Shown here piece after piece: positions 24,069 to 31,955 of a stretch of 35,912 nt of DNA. Position 1 is the first letter of the stretch; every line of letters begins with the position of its first letter. The notes under the pieces were generated by a model. It was not told the DNA's origin. It did not search any database and saw only the letters and a program-made list of their open reading frames with translations. Both the position numbers and the translations under genes were made by a program. The stretch comes from Leptolyngbya sp. CCY15150 (GTDB lineage: Bacteria; Cyanobacteriota; Cyanobacteriia; RECH01). The stretch covers positions 1 to 35,912 of the forward strand of contig NZ_JACSWB010000150.1 in assembly GCF_016888135.1 (NCBI RefSeq), in the 5' to 3' direction.

Positions 24069-24434
<366 letters not shown>

Positions 24435-24503
24435 CTACATAGAAACGCAGAATATTGGTCTGCCGGGGCAGGGGGCACCGACAGACCCGTGACCCGTTTG
24501 AAA

Positions 24504-25619
24504 TCAGCCGCCCAGCGCTTGGGCCAGCCCGATGAAGAGCGGTATGCACAAGGCGATCGCAACCGGTGTGCCAACGGCTGTGGACGCACCGATGTAGGCC
24601 GAGGGATTGGCTGACGGGATACCAGCGCGCAACGTGGGCGGCCCTGAGATGTCTGAACTGGAGGCAGCGATCACGGCTAGGATCACGACGCCGCCAAGGG
24701 TGAATCCCGTGACGTAGTGGGCAATCAGTCCCAGACCGAAGGCGATAAACCCATGCAACAGTGGTGCCACAAAGGCATATACAGCGTACCACTGAGCTAC
24801 TTTACGTAGCTCACCAAGTCTTGCCCATGCTTCCATACCCATGATTAGCATCAGGACTGAAAGCAGACCGCGGAAGAGGGGGTCGTAGAAGCTTTCATAG
24901 ACACTTGCCGGCTGGGTTAGCAAACCTAGAGCAAGACCAAGCAGCAGTGCGGAGAGAGCGGAGCCTTGGAGGCTTTCCTGGACGATAGGCCATATCTTAA
25001 CCCGAGAGTTGCCCATGCCACCCGGCTCGCTGGGATACCCACCTGCGGTACCACCCGGTTCGCTGGGATACCCGCCTGCGGCAACAGCTTGCTTGCTGAC
25101 ATACACTTCATTGGTGCGATACTTTTCGCGCTTCCGCTTGCTGGTATAAATGCTGGCTAAGACGATCGCCGTCACGAGTGCTGGGATGTCCATGAAAGGA
25201 TAGAGAGCAGCAGCCCAGGGCTCGTATACAAGACCACCTTCATCCAGTGACGTCAGAGCGGCAGCCATGGTGGAGCCACTCACGGCACCGAACAAGCCTG
25301 CGGTTGCAAGGGCATCCACGACTCTGATCTTCGGCAGCTTTGCCAAGGTGTAGCGCCCGATGAATACGATCAGGATCCCTATTGCCATGGCGAACAAAGC
25401 AGGCACTAGCATCTCCACTAGGTTGGAGTCACGGATCGCCTGTCCACCTGTCAGACCGACTTTCATGAGCAGCATGAAAACGATGAACTGGTAGACTGCG
25501 TCTGGAATGGTTAGTTGGCTACCGAGGGCGGCAACGACAACGCCACCAATGAGAAAGCCGAGGGTTGGGGACTGCAACTGCGCCAGGAAGCGCATCAAGA
25601 AATCGGATAAAAAATCCAC
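24504..25619 (-). CDS. sbtA: Sodium-dependent bicarbonate transporter SbtA
   Basis: 371 residues from the GTG at 25619, which has AGGAGGT 5 bases upstream; the resulting N-terminus VDFLSDFLMRFLAQLQSPTLGFLIGG matches known SbtA. Two five-helix repeats surround a long cytoplasmic loop. Key family stretches are VFMLLMKVGLTGGQAIRDSNL, LFGAVSGSTMAAALT, AALYPFMDIPALVTAIVLASIY, and near the end SSSDISGPPTLRAGIPSANPSAYIGASTAVGTPVAIALCIPLFIGLAQALGG. It imports bicarbonate with sodium across the plasma membrane for the CO2-concentrating mechanism. The central loop carries a tandem 11-residue repeat (AAGGYPSEPGG, TAGGYPSEPGG). It is followed by sbtB. Confidence 0.96.
   Translation of the reverse strand: MDFLSDFLMRFLAQLQSPTLGFLIGGVVVAALGSQLTIPDAVYQFIVFMLLMKVGLTGGQAIRDSNLVEMLVPALFAMAIGILIVFIGRYTLAKLPKIRVVDALATAGLFGAVSGSTMAAALTSLDEGGLVYEPWAAALYPFMDIPALVTAIVLASIYTSKRKREKYRTNEVYVSKQAVAAGGYPSEPGGTAGGYPSEPGGMGNSRVKIWPIVQESLQGSALSALLLGLALGLLTQPASVYESFYDPLFRGLLSVLMLIMGMEAWARLGELRKVAQWYAVYAFVAPLLHGFIAFGLGLIAHYVTGFTLGGVVILAVIAASSSDISGPPTLRAGIPSANPSAYIGASTAVGTPVAIALCIPLFIGLAQALGG
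25018..25083 (-). repeat. 33-bp tandem duplication within sbtA
   Basis: Two adjacent 33-base copies (25018-25050 and 25051-25083) differ at 3 positions and encode 11-residue units with the core GGYPSEPGG in the cytoplasmic loop of SbtA. The copy number keeps the frame. The high identity suggests a recent duplication by replication slippage. Confidence 0.85.
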
Positions 25620-26303
25620 AAATACCTCCTTCCGCCTCCTCGTTAGAGGAGTGATTATTGTGATAAGTGACCTTGAAAAAGTAAGGGTGAAGCATGTCAC
25701 CCCTACAGCACAGATGTTACAAGAGAACCTATTGACAGAGGATTCAGAGATAGCCGCCCTCCGAATAGGGCTAGAAGGTGTTGCTGTCTTGCATGACCTT
25801 CCATAGACTCTGGTCTATCAATGTTTGAATTTCCATGTGTTTAAGTCTATCCTGAAAACCACAGTTTTTTGCGCTCCTCAGTATGGATTTGAAACGTAAT
25901 GTCAAATTTGAACCATAAGTTTTTCTTTTGTTTGGCGATCCCCCCTTCTGGTTCAGGTGAATGGCGATCGCAGAGTTTTCTCAATGCGCCATGCTGAATG
26001 TGTGCCCGTTACCCAAGAGCTTCACGACTGTCATGCCTTCTTTTCAGAGGTTTACGCCGTCCTGCACCTTGCCTAGATCAGCCCGACTTGCCTGGATCTG
26101 CGGGCCACTGAGAATGGCGATCGCCCCCTACCCTCTGCCACCCAAGCCCCTCTATTTCTTCTTGTTGATCGACTCTATGGATCGATCCAAACCTCTTGCA
26201 GATGCTGCCCTAGTCAACCCATCTCTGTGAACGATCGCACCACGGTCCCGTTGCGGGCCTACGATGGCTCTTGGAACATACCTTGCTCCTAGAATGGGGC
26301 GGA
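25620..26303. other. Gene-free upstream region of sbtAB
   Basis: About 680 bases between sbtA and the small membrane gene. It includes a candidate sbtA promoter (25878-25907), a short GGGTGA/TCACCC inverted repeat at 25685-25702, and a 6-base-arm hairpin near 25635-25650 close to the sbtA ribosome-binding site. Open frames at 25507-25806 and 25961-26230 have no family pattern and unusual composition; I do not call them. Confidence 0.5.
25878..25907 (-). promoter_or_regulatory. Candidate sbtA promoter with overlapping inverted repeat
   Basis: On the minus strand a perfect -35 TTGACA (25905-25900) is followed 16 bases later by a weak -10 TACTGA (25883-25878). An inverted repeat ATTTGA-N9-TCAAAT (25887-25907) covers the -35 and spacer, as an operator would. 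It would leave a leader of about 250 bases before the sbtA GTG. LysR-type regulators (CcmR/NdhR, CmpR) control sbtA in other cyanobacteria, but this repeat does not match their published consensus closely. Confidence 0.35.
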
Positions 26304-26977: not shown

Positions 26978-27349
26978 ATGTCTAACAAATTTCGTTCACC
27001 TGGTTATCATCCAACCCGGAAGCTAAAGGTGATCCTGGCGGGTCTCCATGTTGCGGTAGTCACTGATTTTAGTGTTGCTTATAAGATCATCTTGTCGGTG
27101 CCCGTTTTAGGCGGTGCTTTTCTTTTTCACCAATGGGTAGATGCTGGCTTAATATTGCTCGCAATGGGGCTAATGCTTATTTCTGAATTATTTAACAGTG
27201 CAATTGAAGTCCTGTGCGACTTTGTTGAGCCTCAGCAAAATGATCGTATCCGAGTCAGTAAAGATATTGCAGCAGCGGCGGCTGGACTCAGTATTCTGGT
27301 ATGGGCAACGATTTTAATTATTGAAAGCATCCATCTCGTTCAACTATAG
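26978..27349 (+). CDS. dgkA: Diacylglycerol kinase / undecaprenol kinase family protein
   Basis: A 123-residue membrane protein of the small DgkA family with three hydrophobic segments. The family motif is complete: ELFNSAIEVLCD with E70, N73 and E77, followed by KDIAAAAAGLSIL, which corresponds to the nucleotide-binding K-D of the family. It transfers phosphate from ATP to diacylglycerol or undecaprenol in the inner membrane. In cyanobacteria and Gram-positives the undecaprenol role is plausible, which would link it to glycan carrier recycling. The acidic residue near position 30 is Asp (VVTDFS) instead of the Glu of E. coli DgkA. The ATG at 26978 is the first start; no clear ribosome-binding site. 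Confidence 0.88.
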   Translation: MSNKFRSPGYHPTRKLKVILAGLHVAVVTDFSVAYKIILSVPVLGGAFLFHQWVDAGLILLAMGLMLISELFNSAIEVLCDFVEPQQNDRIRVSKDIAAAAAGLSILVWATILIIESIHLVQL

Positions 27350-27412: not shown

Positions 27413-27616
27413 ATGATCCCAGTTAATAAAGCTCAGCAATAGTTGCAAGATTTGATCGATTCGGTGAGCCAGTCTCATCAATCCATTATTATTGCTGGAC
27501 AGAGTAGCGGCGAATTGATATTCAACACCCAGCAAAATAGACAACCCTTGCGGTATCTGATTCTGATCATCACCCTACGACTTCCCTACATTAGCCGTCA
27601 AGAACCATCAAAATAG
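27413..27616 (+). pseudogene. Broken Phd/YefM-type antitoxin gene
   Basis: From the ATG at 27413 (with GGAG 4 bases upstream) the frame reads MIPVNKAQQ, an in-frame TAG (27440-27442, probably from CAG), then LQDLIDSVSQ and SHQSIIIAGQSSGELIF. Antitoxins of the Phd/YefM group normally read AQxxLxxLIxxVxxSHxPIxIxGxxxxAVLIS. The match covers the whole DNA-binding half, then degrades; the usual AVLISEEDW is lost. The 3' end runs 9 bases into the convergent marR gene. No toxin gene is next to it. A decayed antitoxin is the likely reading. Confidence 0.6.
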
Positions 27617-28057
27617 GGATTGAATACGGTTGAGCAATACTCGTAAAAGTTCCATTTCTGAAGGATCTAAGGGTTCGAGGTGCTGTTGAATATCCCAGAT
27701 GTGGGCAGGAAAAACTTGCTCGAAAAGCTGCTGACCAGTAGCTGTGAGTCGCACAATGACGCTGCGGCGGTTGTCTGGAGGAGTTTCTCTTGTGACCAGG
27801 CCTTTTCGTTCGAGGCGGTCAACAACTCCGGTCAGGGTACCCTTCGTAATCAATGTTTTTTCACCAATGTCTCCCATGCTCATGCCCGGGGTGTTACCTA
27901 GGGTAGCGACGACATCAAACTGGGCCGGAGTTAGATCATACTGTCGCACAAAGGTTTCAGAATAGCTCGAAAAGGCTTGATAAGCTCTGACAAGCGCCCT
28001 AACGGTGGCAAGACTTGGCTCTGAAGTGACAGCTTGGGAGGTACTGGGGAAAGACAT
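27608..28057 (-). CDS. MarR family transcriptional regulator
   Basis: 149 residues with a winged helix-turn-helix flanked by dimerisation helices: RQYDLTPAQFDVVATLGNTPGMSMGDIGEKTLITKGTLTGVVDRLERKGLVTRETPPDNRRSVIVRLTATGQQLFEQV. The recognition helix (TKGTLTGVVDRLERKGLV) and the wing DRR are well conserved. No Cys is present, so thiol-based quinone sensing of the YodB/QsrR kind is not available to it. The ATG at 28057 lies 16 bases from an inverted repeat AATAGT-N10-ACTATT, which suggests autorepression. The same site type recurs near the dioxygenase/reductase genes, its probable targets. Confidence 0.92.
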   Translation of the reverse strand: MSFPSTSQAVTSEPSLATVRALVRAYQAFSSYSETFVRQYDLTPAQFDVVATLGNTPGMSMGDIGEKTLITKGTLTGVVDRLERKGLVTRETPPDNRRSVIVRLTATGQQLFEQVFPAHIWDIQQHLEPLDPSEMELLRVLLNRIQSLF

Positions 28058-28073
28058 AGCTTATCTGGCGGTC

Positions 28074-28095
28074 AATAGTTTTAGTCAGTACTATT
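28074..28095. promoter_or_regulatory. Candidate MarR operator at the marR promoter
   Basis: The inverted repeat AATAGT-N10-ACTATT lies 17-38 bases upstream of the marR ATG, where a core promoter should be. An identical repeat with the same spacing is at 30301-30322. Its inner 13-mer GTTTTAGTCAGTA recurs with one change at 30103-30115 in front of the dioxygenase gene. Confidence 0.6.
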
Positions 28096-28146
28096 CTAGT
28101 GGGTAGGGGCAAGTTTTTACAGTGCCTGTTCGTGAGAAAGGCTCAA

Positions 28147-28181
28147 GCTGCTCCTGAGCTTGGGACATGTTCAGGAACAGC
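28147..28181 (-). terminator. Possible terminator hairpin 3' of the reductase gene
   Basis: Eleven-base arms with one mismatch (GCTGCTCCTGA at 28147-28157, TCAGGAACAGC at 28171-28181) and a 13-base spacer lie about 75 bases past the glutathionyl-hydroquinone reductase stop and ahead of marR. There is only a short T-rich tail. Probably a terminator for the dioxygenase-reductase unit. Confidence 0.4.
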
Positions 28182-28254
28182 CTTGACAGGTTTGTCGGTG
28201 GGAAGCTGGGAAGCATAGCTACGCAGCCTCAGCCAGTGCCATCCTAGATGGGGG

Positions 28255-29217
28255 CTAGCGATCGCGTCCATGGGCCATCCCGTAGTCAAGATCTGGCCCG
28301 GCAGGCACAATGCCGTTGGGGTTGAGTTCGGGTAGCCCAGCGTAGTAGAGCTGCTTGACATGCTCAATGCTGCACCATTCAGCCACCCCCGGCTGCTGAT
28401 ACAGCTCACGGCAGTAGGCCCATAGGTTGGGGAAATCCACCAGGCGCTTGAGGTTGGTCTTGAACAATCCGTGATAGGCCAGATCAAAGCGAAACAAGGT
28501 GGTGAACATACACCAGTCGGCCAGGGTGATTTGCTCGCCCACTAGGTAGCGCTGCTGACCCAGAACCCCTTCCCAGTGATTGAGTGCCTCAAATAACTCA
28601 GTGACTGCACTGTTGTAGGCGGTTTGGGAGGCGGCAAAGCCGCTGCGGTAGACGCCATTGTTGATCGGCTGGTAGATGGCGTCGATGGCCGCGTCGATGG
28701 CGGGGCGCAGGGCCTCGGGATAAAAGTCGCGCTTGGGGAAGGCGGCAAATTCGTTAAAGTCCGAGTTCAACATTTGAATGATCTGCCGCGACTCGTTGTT
28801 GACAATGGTTTGGGTTTGCTTGTCCCACAGCACCGGCACGGTGACTCGCCCGCTGTAGTCGGCCTTGGCGCGGGTATAGATCTGCCACAGATAGTCGGCT
28901 CCGTAGAGGCTGTCGGGAATGCTGCCGAAGCGTTCAGAAAATGTCCAGCCTTGGTCACTGATCACCGGATCCACGATGGAGAGGCTGATCACGTCTTGCA
29001 GCCCTTTGAGCGATCGCAGCAATACCGTCCGGTGCGCCCAAGGACAGCCCAGGGACACATATAGGTGGTAGCGCCCCGGCTCTGCCTTAAAGCCGCTGGA
29101 GCCGTTCGCTGTAATCCAGTTGTGAAATAGCGTGGGCATCCGCTTGAACTGGCCGGAGTCGTCGCGCTCAGTCCATTCGGTGATCCATTGGCCGTCGATC
29201 AGTTTGCCAAGTGCCAT
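28255..29217 (-). CDS. Glutathionyl-hydroquinone reductase (Xi-class GST, YqjG/ECM4-like)
   Basis: 320 residues. The N-terminal thioredoxin-fold part contains YHLYVSLGCPWAHR with catalytic C58, the invariant S-x-GCPWA of this class, then DPVISDQGWTFSE and VPVLWDKQTQTIVNNESRQIIQML (glutathione gamma-glutamyl contact ES). A helical C-terminal domain with QPINNGVYRSGFA and RFDLAYHGLFKTN completes the family pattern; length is typical. It reduces glutathionyl-hydroquinones to hydroquinones in the cytoplasm, part of quinone detoxification. It lies 66 bases downstream of the dioxygenase gene on the same strand and is probably co-transcribed with it. Confidence 0.93.
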   Translation of the reverse strand: MALGKLIDGQWITEWTERDDSGQFKRMPTLFHNWITANGSSGFKAEPGRYHLYVSLGCPWAHRTVLLRSLKGLQDVISLSIVDPVISDQGWTFSERFGSIPDSLYGADYLWQIYTRAKADYSGRVTVPVLWDKQTQTIVNNESRQIIQMLNSDFNEFAAFPKRDFYPEALRPAIDAAIDAIYQPINNGVYRSGFAASQTAYNSAVTELFEALNHWEGVLGQQRYLVGEQITLADWCMFTTLFRFDLAYHGLFKTNLKRLVDFPNLWAYCRELYQQPGVAEWCSIEHVKQLYYAGLPELNPNGIVPAGPDLDYGMAHGRDR

Positions 29218-29283
29218 AGAAATGTCTCCGTTGTAGGGTGGGTGGGGGCAGAGGGGAAAGGTATGGAGGGAAGCATCAACTGT

Positions 29284-30072
29284 TTAACTATCCATCCAAC
29301 ATCCATCAAATTGATAGACGGCCATGCTGAAGGCTCCGTAGGTAAACCCTTGATTGACCTGGTGTCCTTGACCGCCTGCCCCCAAGGCCACAAATAGCGG
29401 CAGCAGGTGCTCGTCGGTGGGATGGTTGCGTTCGGCATGGGGGGCGACTTGGCGGTAGTTGAGCAGGGCGGCAAGGTCGTTTTGGTCGATGGCTTTCGCC
29501 AGCCAGGTGTCAAACTCGATAGCCCAGGCGGGTGGCGCGGCATGGTAGTCGCTGTTGAACGCAGCCATGTTGTGGGTGGCGGCTCCACTGCCAATGATCA
29601 GCACGCCTTCGTCCCGCAGGCAGGCCAGGGCTTTGCCCAAGTGTAGGTGGTGAGCAGGGGTTTCCTGCGGCTGCAACGACAGCAGCGTCACCGGAATCTG
29701 ACCTGCGGGACTCATCAAAATCAGCGGCGTCCAGGCTCCGTGGTCGTAGCCGCGATCGCTGTTGAACTGAGGAGCAAAGCCTGCTTCAGCCAGTAACTCA
29801 GCTACCCGCTTCGCCAAGGTGGGGCTGCCCGGTGCCCGATAGACCAGCTCTGACAGGTGGGGCGGAAAGCCGCCGAAGTCGTAGATGGTCTGGGGCTGGG
29901 GGTTGGTGCTCAGGGTAGGCTGGTCGGTGAGCCAATGGGCCGAGATCACCAACATGGCAGTGGGCTGTTCTGGCAGACTAGCCAAGAGCTGGCGCAAAAA
30001 GTCTTGGGTGGGGCCAGTGCGGATGGGCAGGTCTGGCGCGCCGTGGGAGATGAAGAAGGTGGGGAGAGTCAT
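29284..30072 (-). CDS. LigB/DODA-type extradiol ring-cleavage dioxygenase (YgiD-like)
   Basis: 262 residues of the class III extradiol dioxygenase family (4,5-DOPA dioxygenase, YgiD). Candidate Fe(II)-ligand His are H10 (FISHGAPDL) and H46 (VISAHWLTD), with later conserved His in YDHGAWTPL, GSGAATHNM and the motif NHPTDEHLLPLFVALGA. Length is typical. It opens catechol-type rings using O2 in the cytoplasm; the natural substrate is unknown in cyanobacteria. A -10-like TATACT (minus strand, about 30117-30112) lies 40 bases upstream and overlaps a copy of the MarR-site core. With the hydroquinone reductase it makes a sensible catechol/quinone disposal pair. Confidence 0.92.
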   Translation of the reverse strand: MTLPTFFISHGAPDLPIRTGPTQDFLRQLLASLPEQPTAMLVISAHWLTDQPTLSTNPQPQTIYDFGGFPPHLSELVYRAPGSPTLAKRVAELLAEAGFAPQFNSDRGYDHGAWTPLILMSPAGQIPVTLLSLQPQETPAHHLHLGKALACLRDEGVLIIGSGAATHNMAAFNSDYHAAPPAWAIEFDTWLAKAIDQNDLAALLNYRQVAPHAERNHPTDEHLLPLFVALGAGGQGHQVNQGFTYGAFSMAVYQFDGCWMDS

Positions 30073-30102
30073 TGGTGGGGCAATATAATTTGTGTTCAGA
30101 TT

Positions 30103-30115
30103 GTTTTAGTTAGTA
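30103..30115 (-). promoter_or_regulatory. Candidate MarR-site core over the dioxygenase promoter
   Basis: GTTTTAGTTAGTA matches the centre of the marR-promoter site (GTTTTAGTCAGTA at 28078-28090) at 12 of 13 bases, in the same orientation and at a similar distance from the start codon (31 against 21 bases). It overlaps a TATACT -10 hexamer on the minus strand. The outer ACTATT arm is not conserved here. Confidence 0.5.
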
Positions 30116-30300
30116 TAAAATTCGGGGGGGGACTTCAGGGTGCAAGGGACTGCATAGAAGTGTTCTGGGCGATATGGACAGCGACTAGAAATCCTGGGTG
30201 GGTCTTTTGGGGACTGTGTTTGCGGTAACGAGGGCGATCGCCATGAGGACAGCAGGCAGCGCCAGCGAAGGATGAGTCGCCCCCTGATTCTCCTGGCTCA

Positions 30301-30322
30301 AATAGTCTGTATTAGAACTATT
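30301..30322. promoter_or_regulatory. Second AATAGT-N10-ACTATT inverted repeat
   Basis: Half-sites and spacing are identical to the marR-promoter repeat at 28074-28095, though the 10-base spacer differs. A TATTAT hexamer on the plus strand (30319-30324) overlaps the right arm. It is 230 bases upstream of the dioxygenase start and 380 upstream of the hydrolase start, so which gene it serves is open. Confidence 0.5.
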
Positions 30323-30704
30323 ATGATTTTAAGGTATCACCTCTGAGGGGCGATCGCAACCCTACGCCAAAACTTTTGTTATCCAAGAGACTCTACGTTT
30401 CAACCACTTCATGGATGCGTAACACCCCGTTAAGGTTAGCCATAGTTCTGCCCCGTTGATTCCTTGCAAGATGATTGGCGCTAGCAGAACGGGAGCGAGA
30501 CGCCCAGGTTCCGATTTCATAGCCTCATTCAGCAACGCCTAACGGTGGAGTATACTGACAACAACGTCGGTGCCTTTGATCGGCTTATGGGTCGCTGAGT
30601 GGAAACGTTGAAATCGACTAACTGCGGTGCGGCGGTTTTTCCTTGCTCGGTCTATATATGCCCCTATCAATAGTAGTTAGGCTGAACGTCCATAGAGTAG
30701 CGAC

Positions 30705-31616
30705 ATGAAACCAGCGAATACCTGGAGCATTTGGGAAGAATTTAGAGCTGCACAGCAAGAGATTCTTCTGCCAGCAGGCCAAGTTGCTCACATTCCTCTT
30801 TCTGTCAGATATGTTGATGTGGGAGAAGCTCAGCGAGGCACAATCTTACTGATGCATGGGATCCCAACATGGGGATATCTCTATCACGCTGTTATTCCCA
30901 TCTTAGTAGATGCTGGATACCGGATTTTGGCTCCAGATTTTCTGGGTCATGGCTGGTCAGATCGCCGCGATCGCTTCGATCGATCCTTTCAAGATCAAGC
31001 GCGCATGATTATTGCCCTTCTGTCAGCGCTCAACCTGAAGTGTGTGGATGTTGTTGGGCACGATACCGGTGGTGCCGTTGCTCTTATTCTAGCCATTGAG
31101 CACCAAGATTATGTTAATCGTCTTATTATCTCAAATTCTGTTTGCTACGACCGATTTGACGATGATATGCTCGATTTCGGGCATCCTTTAAGATGGAAAA
31201 CTCGTCCGATATCAGATTTGGTCACGGCGCTTGAAGAAAGTCTTGTAGCAGGGCTTTCTGACCAAAACCAGCTTACCCATGAGTTTCGGCAAGGCATTAT
31301 TGCTCCTTGGGCTAGTGAGGAAGGTAAGCTAAGCTTGCTGCGCAATGCTGCTGCGCTCAATGCAAACCAGACGATGGCGCTCGTCGATCGCCATGGAACT
31401 ATCTCTGCTCAGACCATGATTTTATGGGGAATGGATGACCCTTGGCAGAAGGCAGAAGATGGTAAGCAATTGGCTCAAGAAATTCCTGGTGCTGTTTTCC
31501 GCGCTATTGATGGCGCTTCACATTGGGTGCAACAAGATGCACCAGAAAAGTTCTGTGAAGCACTATTAGAGTTTTTCGCCATTGTGCCTAACAGCCGCAA
31601 TGTCCCGGAACGTTGA
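30705..31616 (+). CDS. Alpha/beta hydrolase with Asp nucleophile (haloalkane dehalogenase/epoxide hydrolase-like)
   Basis: 303 residues. Oxyanion stretch HGIPTWGYLYH (51-61), DFLGHGWSD (79-86), nucleophile elbow VVGHDTGGAVAL with D120, acid region LWGMDDPWQ and catalytic H273 in GASHWVQQD. Asp in place of Ser at the elbow puts it with haloalkane dehalogenases, epoxide hydrolases and related C-X or C-O bond hydrolases. True haloalkane dehalogenases have Trp straight after this Asp; here it is Thr, so dehalogenation should not be assumed. Cytoplasmic; no signal peptide. The ATG at 30705 follows a promoter-like AT-rich stretch. It is a single plus-strand gene next to the quinone-response genes. 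Substrate unknown. Confidence 0.85.
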   Translation: MKPANTWSIWEEFRAAQQEILLPAGQVAHIPLSVRYVDVGEAQRGTILLMHGIPTWGYLYHAVIPILVDAGYRILAPDFLGHGWSDRRDRFDRSFQDQARMIIALLSALNLKCVDVVGHDTGGAVALILAIEHQDYVNRLIISNSVCYDRFDDDMLDFGHPLRWKTRPISDLVTALEESLVAGLSDQNQLTHEFRQGIIAPWASEEGKLSLLRNAAALNANQTMALVDRHGTISAQTMILWGMDDPWQKAEDGKQLAQEIPGAVFRAIDGASHWVQQDAPEKFCEALLEFFAIVPNSRNVPER

Positions 31617-31955
31617 AGGATACTGGGAGCTAGTGAAAATTATCTGCATCCGGCAGTTGCGATCATGAGAGATGTTGTTCCCCTACTACCGACCTAGTGG
31701 CTGCATGGTGAAATGTGGTGCTTACTACAGTCGCGATCGCCCCCCTGGATGCGATCGCTTCTCCTAACATCGCAAGTCCTGATCTCAGCTTAGTTGCGCG
31801 CTTCATGTCCACATATCATGCCTACAGATCATGCCTACAGATCATGCCCACAGTATGTTGATCTTCACCCAAACTCAAGCAATTCTCAGGATTATCCGGC
31901 ATTCTAAAGGTAGTGGAACATCTTTCTTCCCTGCCTGTTGCTAGAGTCTTTGCCC
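31617..31955. other. Gene-free stretch between hydrolase and GH63-like gene
   Basis: About 340 bases with two HIP1 sites near 31735-31760 and a 3 x 13 bp tandem repeat at 31815-31853. I see no gene and no clear terminator. Confidence 0.45.
31815..31853. repeat. Three 13-bp tandem repeats
   Basis: Three adjacent copies of ATCATGCCTACAG, the third with one change (CCCACAG). They lie about 100 bases upstream of the GH63-like gene, within its probable promoter region. Slippage product or spaced regulator sites; no way to choose from sequence. Confidence 0.8.

Follow-up and report, generated by a model that had tools for sequence, protein, structure and literature searches.

The MarR-family regulator encoded beside ligB and ghr in Leptolyngbya sp. 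CCY15150 most likely represses its own gene and the ligB-ghr operon. Judging from the sequence of the locus and its relatives, we put the probability at roughly three in four that this repression acts through three 22-bp operators and that a catechol- or quinone-type aromatic releases MarR from them. In the predicted mechanism, a MarR dimer would bind a 22-bp palindrome, which occurs once at the marR promoter and twice upstream of ligB, and the bound protein would repress both marR and the ligB-ghr operon, presumably by sterically blocking the promoters. A catechol- or quinone-type aromatic would enter the MarR ligand pocket, with no thiol switch involved, and MarR would be released; the extradiol dioxygenase would then open catechols, and the hydroquinone reductase would strip glutathione from hydroquinone conjugates. 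We infer the type of inducer from the enzymes and from the MarR pocket. The features are collected in Table 1, with positions in the window, by which we mean the whole stretch of 35,912 nucleotides that was analyzed.

Table 1. Genes and predicted regulatory sites of the marR-ligB locus.
Feature	Position	Strand	Description
marR	27608-28057	-	149-aa MarR-family regulator, no cysteine; Pfam MarR 1e-17
Operator O1 (predicted)	28074-28095	-	exact AATAGT-N10-ACTATT; 27.1 bits; 17-38 bp upstream of marR start
ghr	28255-29217	-	glutathionyl-hydroquinone reductase (Xi-class GST), CPWAHR motif; second gene of ligB operon
ligB	29284-30072	-	DODA/YgiD-type extradiol dioxygenase; Pfam LigB 4e-33
Operator O2 (predicted)	30099-30120	-	proximal to ligB, degenerate; 18.1 bits
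Conserved block around O3	30283-30380	-	98 bp, 80% identical to L226, E ~1e-18 to 1e-21
Operator O3 (predicted)	30301-30322	-	exact AATAGT-N10-ACTATT; 24.3 bits; ~230-250 bp upstream of ligB, distal
alpha/beta-hydrolase	30705-31616	+	resembles haloalkane dehalogenase; divergent neighbor, judged outside the regulon

A 22-bp palindrome at three positions

The first-pass annotation had noticed two exact copies of the inverted repeat AATAGT-N10-ACTATT, and both are present as O1 and O3. Alignment of orthologous upstream regions gave the full operator as the 22-bp palindrome AATAGTTCTAryTAGAACTATT. The arms originally described are therefore correct, but they are the outer ends of a longer palindrome, in which the inner TTCTA..TAGAA is conserved at least as well. 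The 13-mer GTTTTAGTCAGTA at 28078-28090 recurs with one change as GTTTTAGTTAGTA at 30103-30115; this repeat, noticed earlier over the dioxygenase -10 region, is a third, weaker copy of the operator (O2). O1 overlaps TAGAAT, a possible -10 element, and O2 overlaps TATACT ahead of ligB, both of which were called by eye only, since scanning with the sigma-70 consensus returned no promoter there. Many relatives carry a counterpart of O1, ~24-54 bp ahead of marR. A palindromic operator of about 16-22 bp near the regulator's own promoter is characteristic of the MarR family, and O1 and its orthologous sites fit this description as predicted MarR operators.

Just downstream of the cluster, and convergent with marR, lies a prokaryotic diacylglycerol kinase gene identified by Pfam (26978-27349, + strand). 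Judged by eye, 24069-25700 (- strand) seems to encode a bicarbonate transporter of the SbtA type and, after it, a PII-like SbtB whose C terminus carries a CGPDGC motif.

The genome scan suggested in the first-pass annotation returned two exact copies of AATAGT-N10-ACTATT in the 5.75-Mb genome, both at the marR-ligB locus, and 100 dinucleotide shuffles of the window contained zero exact copies. With up to two mismatches the genome holds numerous matches, but the reversed control pattern has more of them, so that only the exact copies are informative; once two or three mismatches are allowed, chance matches dominate. A symmetrised matrix was built from 50 distinct orthologous sites, none of them from the window, and its top three matches in the window are O1, O3 and O2; the next, at 31546 within the hydrolase gene, scores 12.7 bits. 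A simulated genome of matching size (first-order Markov) gave two matches at ≥18 bits and none at ≥20 bits, a comparison in which the matrix scores are somewhat optimistic because the consensus used to choose the training sites had been derived with knowledge of the window sequence, and because some of the relatives are close. When 150 of 1190 candidates from the genome were scored in a profile search, O1 had E=0.023 and O2 had E=3.1; O3 is absent from the matches listed, probably because only those 150 candidates were scored. The only other match listed was a partial one with E=2.4 (L202 ~1501-1518; G000:C162:21496-21513), ~200 bp ahead of a gene that probably encodes an aldehyde-deformylating oxygenase, and we took this match as chance.

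Recurrence of the site with marR and ligB across cyanobacteria

We surveyed 390 genomes of the class with the query TAGTTCTANNTAGAACTA, allowing at most one mismatch, and found it in 41. The reversed control of TAGTTCTANNTAGAACTA also matches many genomes, and the evidence is therefore the location of the sites and not their raw frequency. Of these 41 genomes, 29 have the site next to ligB, ghr, marR or doxX, and MarR is present in every one of the 29. A MarR orthologue occurs in 33 of the 41 site-bearing genomes versus 68 of the 349 others (Fisher P=9e-15, a nominal value because the genomes are not phylogenetically independent). It is extremely improbable that the repeats are AT-rich palindromes that arose by chance and answer to no common regulator: the count of near-matches per genome is indeed no higher than for the reversed control, but the association with the same genes in MarR-bearing genomes and the cross-genome footprints contradict such an origin.

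Comparison of the regions upstream of orthologues, also proposed at the outset, bore out the earlier expectation, with the palindrome recurring at marR and ligB in many families. In these cyanobacterial families the site precedes marR, and also ligB, doxX or snoaL; marR orthologues carry a related sequence upstream and ligB orthologues often a stronger one. Membership of the regulon is most constant for marR and ligB; ghr usually follows ligB, and no operator was found upstream of ghr or its orthologues. A PCC 6406-like genome (L226) keeps the gene order ligB-ghr-marR and all three operators. In the genus g82, the ligB-ghr operon bears the site while marR lies elsewhere in the genome with its own copy, and because both unlinked units keep the site, the regulatory link can be separated from mere adjacency. 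An operator precedes an adjoining DoxX gene at L109, L114 and L120, and an adjoining SnoaL-like gene at L111 and L116. Counting against the proposed regulon, some MarR orthologues, mostly ~50-57% identical, have no ligB within 1.5 kb and weaker or unrecognisable sites, and several ligB orthologues are without a site.

Another regulator, for example a TetR-family protein, might use the palindrome with MarR as a bystander, as a TetR gene beside the ligB site in L124 could suggest. We regard this as very unlikely, because L124 also has a MarR with its own site, each regulon-linked site is in a MarR-bearing genome, and no second regulator recurs beside the site. The footprints and the co-occurrence thus favor MarR as the protein acting at the palindrome, and they support the part of the first-pass proposal in which MarR controls itself and the dioxygenase-hydroquinone reductase pair; its further suggestion, that the hydrolase belongs to the regulon, did not hold up, as described below.

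Two predicted operators upstream of ligB and the divergent hydrolase

Both products of the operon have full-length relatives among proteins of solved structure. LigB matches 8in2 with E=1.8e-59 and YgiD (2pw6) with E=6.5e-40, and its superfamily membership is firm, although its score of 174.8 bits against NF007914 (4,5-DOPA dioxygenase) misses the cut-off of 233. The ghr product matches E. coli YqjG with E=2.5e-97 and 4uss with E=3e-83. The relatives of YgiD/DODA and YqjG/GHR are here joined in one operon under a predicted MarR operator.

O3 lies between the divergent ligB and hydrolase genes, and the earlier annotation had suggested that the Asp-nucleophile hydrolase might also be under MarR control. 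We assign O3 to ligB, because L226, with its hydrolase ~7 kb away, keeps the block around O3 ahead of ligB, and because hydrolase orthologues in other genomes lack an operator within 600 bp upstream. The rest of the ligB-hydrolase intergenic region gave no BLAST match to L226, and the conserved block is probably a distal promoter of the ligB operon. The two ligB operators of L226 (distal, 23.4 bits; proximal, 25.8 bits) align with those of the window at 30301 and 30099; they are 283 bp apart in L226 and 202 bp in the window. Both are also present in L126, where the distal counterpart scores 15.9 bits, and L122, L124 and L146 likewise have two operators ahead of ligB. DNA looping between the paired operators is a speculation that this arrangement invites.

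It is unlikely that the regulon extends to the hydrolase through the operator at 30301. The gene is indeed divergent beside ligB in the window and beside marR in G232, and lies ~7 kb from ligB in G154, but these are the only genomes with the hydrolase near the cluster; in other genomes with both, they are on different contigs or far apart. In no other genome, G232 included, was an operator found within 600 bp upstream of the hydrolase start, the best match there scoring 11.3 bits and the rest below 8. G232 (L182 1061-5640) has an 82%-identical MarR near a DoxX gene, an NDH-2-like gene and the divergent hydrolase, and no ligB was found in the 12-kb stretch that the analysis covered there.

Several further observations concern the intergenic sequences. 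A small palindrome, AGGTGWTACCT, within the conserved block next to O3 (30340-30351, AGGTGATACCT) recurs in L226 and, almost unchanged, in L126, and could be the site of a second regulator or a promoter element. The interval from O3 to ligB showed no trace of a degenerate doxX or snoaL. Repeat arrays resembling CACCCATC lie between ligB and ghr in L038, L039 and L226 and are absent from the window, and a short unit resembling ATCATGCCTACAG is repeated in tandem downstream of the hydrolase at 31808-31855.

The regulator, its probable inducer and known quinone-responsive systems

Orthologues of MarR were found in 101 of the 390 genomes (E≤1e-30). The window protein scores 64.2 bits against the Pfam MarR domain (gathering score, 24.6) and falls below every NCBIfam equivalog cut-off. 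It contains zero cysteines, as noted before, and no cysteine position is conserved among its orthologues, where the commonest cysteine column is filled in 16 of 51. The best relatives of the MarR profile with a solved structure include S. aureus MhqR (9QDR), whose quinone pocket contains F11, F39, E43 and H111 (PMC12893000). If residue numbers in the crystal chain are shifted by 3, an assumption that suits all four positions, the counterparts of F39 and H111 in MarR are F47 and H119, which are conserved in 98% and 96% of 51 orthologues; F11 and E43 are not conserved, and MarR has V19 and A51 at these positions. Because MarR proteins that bind other ligands have equivalents of F39 and H111 as well (PMC12893000), F47 and H119 support an aromatic pocket and not quinone specificity.

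The inducer of the same regulon could instead be another aromatic, such as a salicylate-like compound, a hydroxycinnamate, a DOPA-derived or another cyanobacterial phenolic, in which case the system might serve ring catabolism or metabolite turnover and not quinone stress. MarR proteins bind many phenolics in the pocket, the dioxygenase is of the DODA type, and SnoaL-like genes join the regulon in some genomes. The closest NCBIfam model is HpaR (TIGR02337), itself a MarR repressor of aromatic ring cleavage, although the match is far under the cut-off (59.3 versus 121.2 bits) and the locus has no homoprotocatechuate gene set. We consider such an inducer possible but doubtful, since the constant pairing with a hydroquinone reductase and the frequent DoxX genes favor detoxification.

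The resemblance to the Bacillus response that the first-pass annotation had drawn gains support from the DoxX genes in the regulon elsewhere and from the conservation of two of the four MhqR pocket residues. CatR controls a DoxX-dioxygenase pair, and the DoxX proteins of Bacillus include CatD and MhqP; the DoxX-dioxygenase pairing in other cyanobacteria recalls Bacillus catDE and mhqNOP. The MhqR regulon comprises mhqRED in S. aureus and azoR2, mhqNOP, mhqED and mhqA in B. subtilis (PMC6798810, PMC12893000). Like MhqR, the cyanobacterial MarR is predicted to be a repressor of quinone-detoxifying and dioxygenase genes that acts at a palindromic promoter operator, and it would share with MhqR the lack of a thiol switch and part of the ligand pocket (PMC6798810, PMC12893000). 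It differs in its phylum, in the low sequence identity, in its targets, which are here a LigB-type dioxygenase and a glutathionyl-hydroquinone reductase, and in its operator, which is unrelated to the MhqR operator TATCTCGAA-aTCGAaATA (PMC6798810). The MarR/DUF24 proteins YodB, CatR and QsrR also control quinone reductases and a catechol dioxygenase, but they sense through a conserved N-terminal cysteine (PMC6798810), and this residue (Cys6/Cys7 in YodB/CatR) is absent from the cysteine-free window protein, for which no DUF24/HxlR match appeared among the Pfam hits. The system is a well-supported case of a local MarR repressor of aromatic/quinone disposal, an analogue of MhqR and CatR whose operator is unrelated to theirs and whose enzymes belong in part to other families.

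Our literature search found no described cyanobacterial MarR regulon of such make-up. The control of quinone stress responses is known in detail in Firmicutes, and cyanobacteria make and meet many quinones. We tentatively suggest, at somewhat less than even odds, that these proteins form an unnamed, widespread cyanobacterial lineage of quinone/catechol MarR regulators with a cysteine-free pocket, an operator code of its own and movable targets (ligB, ghr, doxX and snoaL), in which paired ligB operators may loop. The 22-bp operator common to the families makes this a testable regulon and allows target prediction in many genomes, and the operator could be used as an aromatic-inducible promoter part.
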